Shown here: piece after piece, positions 3,791 to 6,265 of the stretch
Numbering within the stretch: the first letter of the stretch is position 1
Layout: every line of letters starts with the position of its first letter
Virus record (IMG/VR): IMGVR_UViG_3300042547_000170
Coordinates: 1 to 29,996 of that record
Source: a virus
Reading direction: 5' to 3' (one strand)
Length of the DNA: 29,996 bases
Notes under the pieces: generated by a model
Told to the model about the DNA's origin: nothing
Seen by the model: only the letters and a program-made list of their open reading frames with translations
The model's database searches: none
Translations under genes and position numbers: made by a program

Positions 3791-4113
3791 TAGTCGCTCC
3801 TGACCAGCACTTCATCCATCCGATCCAGGTCTGTCTCACTCGTTGCGTGAACACAGAACCAGACCGCGTCCTCGATCGCCTCGATCCGGTGATGCACCCC
3901 AGCTGGTATCGTGATCACGGCCGGCGCTTTGTATTGCCTCTCGACACCGTCTGCCTCGACCGTCACTTCACCACTCGCCAGTATCGACAGGTGGTCATAG
4001 TGATGCGCGTGGGTCACCGCAAAGTGACCCCGCGGCAGCATCATCTGTCTCGCATACAACCCAGCTGAGAAGTGATGCCTGATCTGCAGATCTATGTCGA
4101 TCATGCAGACCAT
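3790..4113 (-). CDS. Cupin-domain protein
   Basis: A 107-residue single-domain cupin, ATG 4113. Motif 1 is seen as HAHHYDHLSILASGEV (metal-binding His cluster, Gly turn) and motif 2 as ITIPAGVHHRIEA, with strands between them, so the small beta-barrel looks complete. Cupins of this kind bind a metal and a small ligand or act as structural barrels; the substrate cannot be told from sequence. The gene lies at the head of the structural run that leads to the portal gene, so it may be a virion or tail accessory rather than a metabolic enzyme. Weak Shine-Dalgarno; a second ATG three codons in is possible. Confidence 0.75.
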   Translation of the reverse strand: MVCMIDIDLQIRHHFSAGLYARQMMLPRGHFAVTHAHHYDHLSILASGEVTVEADGVERQYKAPAVITIPAGVHHRIEAIEDAVWFCVHATSETDLDRMDEVLVRSD

Positions 4114-4145
4114 TCTATTGGATGTTGTACAGAGGAGGGAATAGC

Positions 4146-4167
4146 GCGGTATCGGAGCGGTATCGCT
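4146..4167. repeat. Two 11-bp direct repeats, GCGGTATCG(G/C)(A/T)
   Basis: Two abutting copies, GCGGTATCGGA and GCGGTATCGCT, lie between the 61-residue gene and the cupin gene. The core GGTATCG (CGATACC on the other strand) also occurs at 4396-4402 and at both promoters in 11145-11341, so these may be binding sites of one phage regulator. Confidence 0.5.
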
Positions 4168-4351
4168 ACTCGATAGACTTCAGAAACTGCCACTGCTCGA
4201 CCGTCACCTCGTTCATCTCATCATGGGGTTGTTTAATGTGCTCGCACATTTCCCAAGGTGGACAGTCGCAGTCACTCGATGGCAGCGAGTAATCGGTGCG
4301 TTGAGTCACTCTCGGTCGCGCTGTAGGTTCGTACCGTTTAGCTTTTCCCAT
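4166..4351 (-). CDS. Small Cys-rich hypothetical protein
   Basis: A 61-residue protein with a GTGAGG Shine-Dalgarno before ATG 4351. A basic N-terminus (GKAKRYEPTARPR) is followed by a Cys/His cluster, CDCPPWEMCEHIKQPH, which could hold a metal ion, and a short acidic C-terminal helix (VTVEQWQFLKS). I recognise no family. It is the first gene after the structured region at 4352-4720 and probably starts the message that runs through the cupin and structural genes to the portal gene. Confidence 0.55.
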   Translation of the reverse strand: MGKAKRYEPTARPRVTQRTDYSLPSSDCDCPPWEMCEHIKQPHDEMNEVTVEQWQFLKSIE

Positions 4352-4378
4352 AGAACCTCACCCGTGGGGGGTGTTCTT

Positions 4379-4408
4379 TGACTGCGAGGGTTCGTGGTAT
4401 CGCAGTCA
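4379..4408. repeat. Perfect 9-bp inverted repeat with GGTATCG in its right part
   Basis: TGACTGCGA at 4379-4387 and TCGCAGTCA at 4400-4408, separated by 12 bases. It lies about 30 bases upstream of the 4166-4351 gene start. No U-run follows on either strand, so an operator or 5'-UTR hairpin is more likely than a terminator. It contains a GGTATCG core at 4396-4402. Confidence 0.5.
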
Positions 4409-4589
4409 TCAGACGCTCTGGTTTATCTAGGCTGGCTTCCGGTTTCCCGTCCACCCCGAGCAACTGGCCCCGTTCGCTTGCGCTACTGAAGCACCACCCG
4501 ATTCGCCACGTTTATCCGAGTCGGTCGCGTCAACCTTCTCGAGGGCTGGGTTAATGGCCCCCGTTCCCGGTTGGCGTAGGGGCAAACAA

Positions 4590-4664
4590 AAAGCCCTTGC
4601 AGCTGCCCCTCGGTAGAAACCCCCGAGGAGACATTCGGAGGCGAGAGGCATGTGCAAGGGCTTT
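4590..4664 (-). terminator. Bidirectional terminator-like hairpin after terL
   Basis: A 12-bp perfect stem, AAAGCCCTTGCA (4590-4601) with TGCAAGGGCTTT (4653-4664), encloses a 51-base loop that holds its own CCTCGG/CCGAGG hairpin (4608-4628). On the minus strand the stem is followed by a T-rich tail (GGGCTTTTTGTTTG), as in an intrinsic terminator downstream of terL. The plus strand also has a T-rich tail (CTTTCTTTTG). A further 10-bp pair (4570-4579 with 4678-4687) encloses the whole element, which is more elaborate than a simple terminator. Confidence 0.6.
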
Positions 4665-4720
4665 CTTTTGTCGGTTTCTACGCCAACGCTTCGTACACTA
4701 GCCAAACGCTCCGCAGGCTG

Positions 4721-6265
4721 TCAAGCAAACACGTCAAAGTCCGCACTGGCAGTGGTCTGATGAACCATCGGAGCACCGGCCATGTTGCTTTTCCGCACCA
4801 TCCGGTTGTACTCGCCGCCACCCAGCATCAGGTACCCAAAGCTGTCGCCAATGTGCGAGTGCTCGTTCTTGTTGGGCGTATCCCTGAACCGTTCCTGTCC
4901 CGCGCCGATCGCCACCCTGCGAAAGTGATACCCGCCTCCCAGAGCCTTTCTGAGGAGCTTGCAGGAGCGATTGACGATCAGCCCAGGCTTACCCATTACC
5001 AGCCTCTGCATGGGGCTTGCAGCGGCTTCCCTGCGTACCTTGAAGTCGTTGCTGGCAGTGGGTTGCGCCTTTAGCCCCAGGGTGCGCAGGAAGTCGAAGG
5101 ACGTGACCTCATAGATCGCGTCTCTCGCCATACCGGCGGGATCCCCCCAGAGCATGACCTGGTGGTTGGGGTATCGCTGGTTGAGCTCTGCGAGCAGCTG
5201 CAGGCCGAACCGCTCGAGGCCCATGTCGAAGGTCACGATCTCGTGGTGGATCAGCCAGCGTCCGTTGGGGAGTCTCTGTCCGATGGTGGCTGCAGGGGTG
5301 AGACCAAAGTCCAGGCCCACCTGGATGGGTACGCCAGGCTCGACCTCCGTCTCCCCGCTCATGGTGGCGTCGTCGTACTCTGGCCAGACGGGTCGGCCTT
5401 CCTGGACGTAGGTGTACTGACCCGCGGCATAGCACCGGATCCAGTCCAGGTTCTTGCCGGGCAGCATCTGCTGGTAGTAGCCGGCGGGGAGGTTGTTGAT
5501 GTTCTCCGCGGCGGGGTTCGTCTTCCACCACTTGCCGGCAGCGAGCATATGGTCGTTGGCCTCGGGGTTGTCCGGCAGGTCGTCAGCGGGAACTTCGATG
5601 ACACCGCCTGGTTGCTTCCAGAACTTCCAGCCTCGGGGCTTTTCCTTCTCGGCCATGTTGTGCCACCAGTGGTCGTCGTCCATCGGGTTGGTATCCATCC
5701 AGATGCCGTGCCAGGACGCGCCGCCATCACGCTTCGTTGGATACCGTCCCACCCGGTGCGTGAGGCCGTCTATGACCGCTTTGGGGAGCTCACGGGCCTC
5801 GTTGACCCATGCGCCTGTGAGCTCGAGAGAGAGCAGCTTTCTAACGTCCTTGGGCTGATCGAGCGCCAGAAAGATGACCTCGCAGTCGATACCGGCAGCA
5901 TCACCGCGGGCGGGCAGCCGAATGTGGTGGGTGATGGGTGGCGTCCAGAGCATGTTGCCGAACGTGCTCTCGGGGAACAGATCCAGCCAGGTCTTGATGG
6001 TGGTGGTCTTCAGCATGGGGTAGCTGTTCCTGACCACGGCCCAGCGCGAGTACCGGATGTTGTCGATGGGGGAGGGCTTCTGTTTGACGGCCTGGATGAA
6101 GATCTTGGCCGCGCAGGCGTAGCTCTTCCCGGATCCGACCGGCCCCATGACACCGGCCACGAACTGTCTGGATTGGATGAAGTCGTAGACCACCGGGCTC
6201 TCACTGAAGTCCAGCTTCAGTCCGGTGACGCCGACCTGCTTGGCGCTCTGTTCTTTAGTTCTCAC
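4721..6265 (-). CDS. terL: Terminase large subunit (packaging ATPase/nuclease)
   Basis: A 514-residue packaging motor that pumps DNA into the procapsid through the portal and cuts it. The N-terminal ATPase domain has Walker A GPVGSGKS (41-48), an RN-SYPML segment (79-85) and a Walker B-like strand ending WVNEA with the catalytic Glu near 156. The C-terminal RNase H-type nuclease shows Asp in VGLDFGLTP (319), Asp in LWGDPAG (375) and Asp in HIGDSFGYL (474). Length and motif order fit a full-length enzyme. The start is GTG 6265 in a GTGA overlap with the upstream gene, supported by a GAAGGA Shine-Dalgarno. The small subunit is unusually far upstream, separated by five small genes. Confidence 0.93.
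   Translation of the reverse strand: MRTKEQSAKQVGVTGLKLDFSESPVVYDFIQSRQFVAGVMGPVGSGKSYACAAKIFIQAVKQKPSPIDNIRYSRWAVVRNSYPMLKTTTIKTWLDLFPESTFGNMLWTPPITHHIRLPARGDAAGIDCEVIFLALDQPKDVRKLLSLELTGAWVNEARELPKAVIDGLTHRVGRYPTKRDGGASWHGIWMDTNPMDDDHWWHNMAEKEKPRGWKFWKQPGGVIEVPADDLPDNPEANDHMLAAGKWWKTNPAAENINNLPAGYYQQMLPGKNLDWIRCYAAGQYTYVQEGRPVWPEYDDATMSGETEVEPGVPIQVGLDFGLTPAATIGQRLPNGRWLIHHEIVTFDMGLERFGLQLLAELNQRYPNHQVMLWGDPAGMARDAIYEVTSFDFLRTLGLKAQPTASNDFKVRREAAASPMQRLVMGKPGLIVNRSCKLLRKALGGGYHFRRVAIGAGQERFRDTPNKNEHSHIGDSFGYLMLGGGEYNRMVRKSNMAGAPMVHQTTASADFDVFA

Follow-up and report, generated by a model that had tools for sequence, protein, structure and literature searches.

An exchangeable two-module structured RNA with a predicted loop-to-terminator kissing contact in aquatic phages

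Introduction

The lambda pR′ leader (6S RNA) is a short, terminated leader made from a constitutive-type promoter, with an operon lying beyond the terminator, and phage P4 has a CI immunity RNA, small and structured, which termination may release. The HK022 put RNAs, of ~70 nt with two stem-loops, are located just after early promoters and prevent termination without a phage protein (PMC9378689). In GOLLD RNAs, a conserved 3′ part is accompanied by a less conserved 5′ part (PMC12286853).

Here we describe an RNA locus in a virus record of 29,996 bases, the whole of which is referred to as the window. The RNA is encoded on the minus strand from about 4688 to 4350 (~340 bases) and consists of a 5′ module and a conserved core, preceded by a sigma-70-like promoter. 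It is almost certainly a real, conserved structured RNA. A preliminary description of the region had suggested a phage structured RNA, and this proposal is now strongly supported by a conserved promoter, by covarying helices and by homologues in many phages.

Results

Extent of the feature and coding potential

A repeat search recovered, at the same places, all four inverted repeats given in the preliminary description:

4379–4387 and 4400–4408: 9-bp inverted repeat
4570–4579 and 4678–4687: 10-bp inverted repeat
4590–4601 and 4653–4664: 12-bp inverted repeat
near 4608–4626: small inner CCTCGG/CCGAGG hairpin

The predicted folding energy of region 4560–4700 was −68.8 kcal/mol on the minus strand (z −5.5) and −68.7 kcal/mol on the plus strand (z −6.4), and on each strand none of 200 dinucleotide shuffles was as good. 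The 12-bp stem, earlier taken for a terminator, is indeed terminator-like on the minus strand, where it is followed by TTTTTGTTT, and the kissing segment described below lies inside this stem-loop. The stem and the U-run, both of which are really present, could be explained by a strong terminator acting in both directions, the inverted repeats being due to chance, but as a complete explanation this is scarcely credible, being contradicted by the conserved promoter, the kissing covariation and a 200-nt core conserved in dozens of phages. Covariation was clearly present beyond the 12-bp stem. The feature is larger than first described and is more than a terminator; the earlier account did not include the promoter (4724–4697, overlapping the terL stop), the complementarity of the 5′ hairpin loop to the apex of the terminator (GTAGAAACC at 4673–4681 and GGTTTCTAC at 4613–4621) or the conserved RNA core (4350–4563).

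The stop-free minus-strand frame noted earlier is present, running from a TTG at 4705 to 4427 (92 aa). The small overlapping peptide proposed with it was not borne out: relatives that have this RNA show the frame shifted or interrupted by in-frame stops (L004, L006, L007 and L012), leading to rejection of the protein-coding reading, and the 92-aa frame had no match in PHROG.

None of the Rfam 15 covariance models matched the window at the family threshold, and a relaxed threshold returned only sub-threshold, unrelated matches (E up to 5). The 18 loci with homologues or related modules that were searched in the same way also gave no match. The RNA was not matched by the GOLLD or ROOL models and, at 200–350 nt, does not have the ~70 nt, two-stem-loop form of HK022 put. 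By the tests made, it is not a member of the Rfam, GOLLD/ROOL or HK022 put families, and the RNA family is new, being absent from the public RNA-family library (Rfam 15).

Promoter

Two elements were assigned directly before the RNA:

4719–4724, minus strand: −35 box TTGACA, overlapping the terL stop codon
4697–4702, minus strand: −10 box GCTAGT, assigned from its spacing to the RNA 5′ hairpin across loci

The pair reads TTGACA-16-GCTAGT in the window and TTGACA-16-GATAGT in the relatives L003 and L004. The window promoter was called by position and conservation and not by consensus scan; an automatic general consensus scan did not list it, and its second hexamer is weak. Upstream of 41 loci with a 5′ module, a TTGACA/TATAAT-like pair was present with a median of 8 nt (IQR 7–9) between the end of the −10 box and the RNA 5′ hairpin, and for 24 cores without a 5′ module the median promoter distance was also 8 nt, with larger scatter. 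Promoter pairs scored above 95 % of shuffles in 23 of the 41 and in five of the 24. The transcription start was deduced from promoter spacing. Many homologues have the promoter-like pair directly before the RNA and early-looking genes after it, whilst in the window the RNA follows terL.

Kissing contact, terminator and alternative pairing in the 5′ module

The 5′ module of the window comprises the following elements:

4670–4687, minus strand: 5′ hairpin GUUGG-CGUAGAAA-CCGAC, at the inferred RNA start
4673–4681, minus strand: kissing strand 1 (GUAGAAACC), loop of the 5′ hairpin
4613–4621, minus strand: kissing strand 2 (GGUUUCUAC), located in the apical region of the terminator hairpin
4590–4664, minus strand: terminator hairpin, outer stem 4653–4664/4590–4601, inner stem 4642–4650/4604–4612
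4584–4592, minus strand: U-run (TTTTTGTTT), after the terminator stem
4570–4579, minus strand: alternative strand CUACGCCAAC, which pairs with GUUGGCGUAG (4678–4687), excluding the 5′ hairpin

The same module design, with a 5′ hairpin, a terminator hairpin and U-run, and 13–24 nt to the core, was found upstream of the core in 44 loci. A U-run of 5–8 was present in 43 of these 44 modules, which had been located by a T-run of at least four. The 5′ hairpin has a 7-nt loop (GUNNNNN) that pairs with a segment lying, in the usual case, 8–14 nt before the terminator 3′ arm, and in 31 modules less than 85 % alike kissing with the own partner exceeded all 20,000 permutations, the same free helix choice being allowed for own and permuted partners. 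The 44 modules contained 25 distinct kissing helices (anchored 7-mers). Standard pairs made up 116 of the 125 variable kissing pairs, compared with a mean of 57 and a maximum of 79 for permuted partners, the own value being somewhat inflated by the picking of the best-pairing anchored 7-mers in each sequence. Together this makes a strong comparative case for a kissing contact between loop and terminator that persists through complete changes of sequence. Judged by covariation, the contact could form within one molecule or between molecules, as both fit the data.

The segment between the U-run and the core, which in the window corresponds to the 10-bp repeat described earlier, is complementary to the 5′ hairpin, and its own-partner pairing also exceeded all 20,000 permutations. 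The kissing and alternative pairings compete, because the alternative pairing partly uses the kissing nucleotides.

Structure of the conserved core

The core was resolved into the following elements:

4350–4563, minus strand: conserved core RNA (3′ module), from model match and covariation
4542–4561, minus strand: P1 hairpin GGGGC/GCCCU, with loop CAUUAACCCA at 4547–4556
4517–4541, minus strand: P2, CGAG/CUCG with inner GGU/ACC, from covariation
4505–4517, minus strand: conserved GGAUAAACGUGGC, the 3′ part of which forms the closing helix GUGNN/NNCUAG
4415–4430, minus strand: conserved CUAGAUAAACCAGAGC, varied in the cultured phage MEP301 (see below)
4379–4408, minus strand: 3′ hairpin UGACUGCGA/UCGCAGUCA, with other stems instead in L012 and L069
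4360–4363, minus strand: GGGU, pseudoknot partner of ACCC in the P1 loop, assigned by eye in the window

P1, P2 with its inner helix and the closing helix GUGNN/NNCUAG were found by RNAalifold in 30 diverse cores. Standard pairs accounted for 97.8 % of the core helix pairs (75.9 % when shuffled), and the covariation score was 0.564, compared with 0.152 for shuffled sequences and at most 0.087 with partners slid. The P1 closing pair was CG in 19, GC in eight and UA in two. At three pairs of P2 both sides had changed in 14–17 of the 30 sequences, with at most one broken; own-partner pairing was matched by none of 20,000 permutations for P2 and by three of 20,000 for a further helix, P3. The invariance of CUAGAUAAACCAGAGC and of CTAGATAAAC[CG]AGAGC is partly by construction, since an exact pattern was used for the search.

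The P1 loop and the 3′ end fell into five compensating 4-mer classes (ACCC/GGGU, AUCC/GGAU, ACCU/AGGU, ACCA/UGGU and GCCC/GGGC), which do not constitute a formal test because the 3′ strands were chosen by complementarity. In the window, L012 and L069 an additional G puts the 4-mer rule out of frame, and the rule fails there. For this pseudoknot, a general permutation test on the best helix (1556 of 20,000) was uninformative, as the P1 stem was scored as well.

The 5′ leader position of the RNA and the conserved unpaired motifs GAUAAACGUG and CUAGAUAAACGAGAGC between covarying helices would suit a riboswitch, with the core binding a ligand or protein and controlling the downstream operon. We consider this very improbable, given that no single ligand would suit genes as varied as those downstream, that the terminator stands before the core and not after it, and that no Rfam riboswitch was matched.

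Homologues and their distribution

A conserved 21-base pattern led to 15 contigs and the CTAGATAAACSAGAGC pattern to more than 119 hits, some of them by chance; once upstream P1 and GATAAAC features were required, 78 distinct core sequences were obtained from viral data. Covariance model R1 matched the window at 4415–4563 (120.5 bits, E 4.8e-38), the metagenomic genome MW202825 (E 2.8e-40) and the cultured Methylophilales phage MEP301 at 33432–33565 (E 8e-22), the last of these being outside the training set of the model. The MEP301 core carries a compensating change in P1 (GGAC/GUCC), and CCAGATAAACGAGAATGC replaces the search pattern. On the plus strand of MEP301 (L260, 33430–33885), the RNA and the DUF1289 ORF behind it are both unannotated, the record instead giving gp54 (33584–33730) on the opposite strand. 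The searched papers on OM43 phages, which discuss MEP301, make no mention of a non-coding RNA, and a literature search for the core sequence gave no description, its sole match being an unrelated Entamoeba paper.

Apart from MEP301, the homologues were found in contigs of uncultured aquatic phages. The core was present in 13 of the 34 virus records reached through the loci, in one copy each, most of the 13 having been recruited by the core pattern. In five of these 13 records the RNA lay within ~700 bases of a contig end; perhaps an RNA common to different strains breaks assemblies.

A search of 754 bacterial genomes (369 and 385 from two classes) gave one candidate, with 30.3 bits and an E of 4e-7 for that genome. 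This weak core match (L275, 1501–1693, genome G208) has P1 and P2 intact and is flanked by a PIN/HTH gene pair on one side and a resolvase gene on the other. Pattern matches in genomes looked like chance and were rejected. No core match was found in the plasmids searched, and no convincing match in the parts read of other TerL relatives (Hodr, BcepC6B and SI2).

Genomic context and exchange of modules

In the window the RNA lies between two minus-strand reading frames:

4721–6265, minus strand: terL (terminase large subunit), upstream neighbour (phrog_2, E 3.2e-19)
4166–4351, minus strand: 61-aa ORF starting at the RNA end, no Pfam match

The closest cultured relative of the window TerL is that of MEP301 (74 % identical). 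The minus-strand sequence after the terL stop was common over ~340–370 nt to L003, L004, L006, L007, L012 and L069, and only in those six of the 80 viral loci with a related terL was the core found by the model. L004 lacks the 61-aa ORF and has, after the RNA, the promoter-like stretch described below and then the next gene. L002 and L005 encode a TerL that is 99 % identical, but have a different sequence after terL, which in L002 gave nothing of note against Rfam at a relaxed threshold. A DNA methylase-like ORF directly follows terL in L013 and L014 (judged by eye from the first residues). Many other terL relatives have a promoter-like stretch (TTGTACAA...AATAGAATC) within ~60 bases after terL, which in the window lies beyond the RNA. 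At about 4085–4160 of the window, a promoter-like TTGTACAA-like ... CCAATAGAAT stretch precedes the next gene, and members of the terL clade share it whether or not they have the RNA. Most window-type phages lack the RNA; its position is empty or taken by a probable methylase or another RNA. As relatives with a similar terL may have the RNA, lack it or carry other content there, the RNA is an accessory, exchangeable cassette.

Elsewhere the RNA usually heads a gene group, often an early-looking operon with a YqaJ-like exonuclease or DNA methylases, several of these neighbours having been called by resemblance to the YqaJ gene of the window or by eye. A same-strand ORF follows shortly after the core in most contexts, and the first downstream gene varies widely; in MEP301 relatives it is a DUF1289 gene (16 loci in one cluster; Pfam on two such proteins). 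L108 and L140 have no credible downstream gene, and their neighbouring genes are on the other strand. Marine relatives have the core without the 5′ module.

These contexts bear on the possibility that this is an ornate, trans-acting phage RNA of the GOLLD/ROOL kind, stable, made in infection, perhaps a kissing-loop multimer, and variable in its 5′ part and conserved in its 3′ part. The RNA has its own promoter, varied genes downstream (on the other strand beside it in L108/L140), cargo behaviour between terL and the next gene, and a conserved 3′ core whose 5′ module varies or is absent; a similar division is reported for GOLLD (PMC12286853), although this is an analogy of layout only. We regard such a role as possible but on balance unlikely: the RNA is smaller, has no Rfam match, is usually close upstream of an ORF, and a terminator was not found at its 3′ end.

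The 5′ modules themselves are exchanged. The window, L004, L006 and L007 have near-identical terL and core but wholly different self-complementary 5′ modules, and this fast swapping, together with the 25 distinct kissing sequences, is the one hint of a specificity RNA for superinfection immunity or incompatibility, in which a short terminated 5′ RNA would know its own kind through the 7-nt kissing sequence and block a second genome. Such a function appears improbable. No repressor or target was seen, and turnover of a terminator hairpin has duller explanations. In addition, the domain combination of a functional serine integrase is reported missing from MEP301 (PMC8024684), so that a temperate life style is not indicated for this phage.

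A second type of 5′ module (type B), with the same terminator idea, was found in 40 contigs. It was followed by the core in four cases and directly by an ORF in L220, L223 and L232, whilst in 32 it led into further conserved sequences of at least three types that appear to be structured. The sequence types replacing the core in these 32 of 40 contigs (L207–L242) were CTCCGCAC, GCGGTACGTCGG and GGGCGCG..GTTAG; two such loci, L209 and L215, had no Rfam match at the gathering threshold. An ORF directly after the terminator of a type A or type B module was observed in L008, L220, L223, L232 and L233, and the L220 product (89 aa) had no Pfam match. Because type A and type B modules lead into the core, other structured RNAs or ORFs, head and cargo are exchangeable, and finding one kind of head in front of various structured RNAs or genes suggests a control system built from RNA modules. 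A further step, that promoter and self-kissing terminator form a plug-in head for interchangeable RNAs or small genes, the kissing sequence being a hypervariable self-recognition tag between competing phages, is rather improbable.

Discussion

At the level of sequence comparison, the promoter position, the two-module RNA, the covariation and the exchangeability are established. Our preferred explanation, over the GOLLD/ROOL-like and immunity readings, is a tentative one, namely that the RNA may be an exchangeable leader cassette controlling transcription elongation. RNA polymerase would start at the promoter adjoining the 5′ hairpin, the loop of which would dock onto the apex of the emerging terminator hairpin. 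Part of the transcripts would end at the U-run, giving a short RNA of ~105–110 nt, whilst read-through transcripts would expose the alternative strand, which may capture the 5′ hairpin and free the kissing contact. The core would then be made and would close by pairing of its 3′ end with the P1 loop; its target may be the elongating polymerase or downstream expression, as with leader RNAs such as HK022 put.

Control of elongation is favoured by the promoter 7–9 nt before the RNA, by the kissing and alternative pairings that each beat all permutations, by the near-universal U-run and the covarying core helices, and by the same-strand ORF shortly after the core in most contexts, frequently within early-looking operons that also contain a YqaJ-like exonuclease or methylases; 5′ modules may also run straight into an ORF (L008, L220 and L223) or other RNAs. 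Against it, the alternative strand is made only once the terminator has been passed, kissing need not alter termination because the kissing strands lie outside the terminator stem, some kissing contacts could be intermolecular, and marine relatives have the core without the 5′ module. The varied first downstream gene, and the absence of a credible one in L108/L140, would fit a trans-acting RNA better.

The RNA represents a widespread family in aquatic phages, unannotated so far, that is also present in a cultured phage of a marine methylotroph. Its presence in MEP301 makes it testable at once in a real phage–host pair.

In its constitutive-type promoter, predicted short terminated leader and operon beyond the terminator, the RNA resembles the lambda pR′ leader; it differs in that no Q-like gene was identified beside it, and we know of no kissing design in lambda 6S RNA. 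With the P4 CI immunity RNA it shares small size, structure and possible release by termination, but it has another architecture and comes without an immunity target or satellite biology. Like GOLLD and ROOL, it is phage-encoded and highly structured with kissing loops, but it is much shorter, has no sequence or covariance match to them and usually heads an operon, and no tRNA island was seen next to it in a search that was not systematic. Compared with HK022 putL and putR (PMC9378689), it is longer, has a predicted kissing contact that reaches a terminator hairpin and includes a further module, the core; as a putative phage leader RNA it likewise has stem-loops and no phage protein obviously needed, and in many homologues it directly follows a promoter-like pair and precedes early-looking genes.
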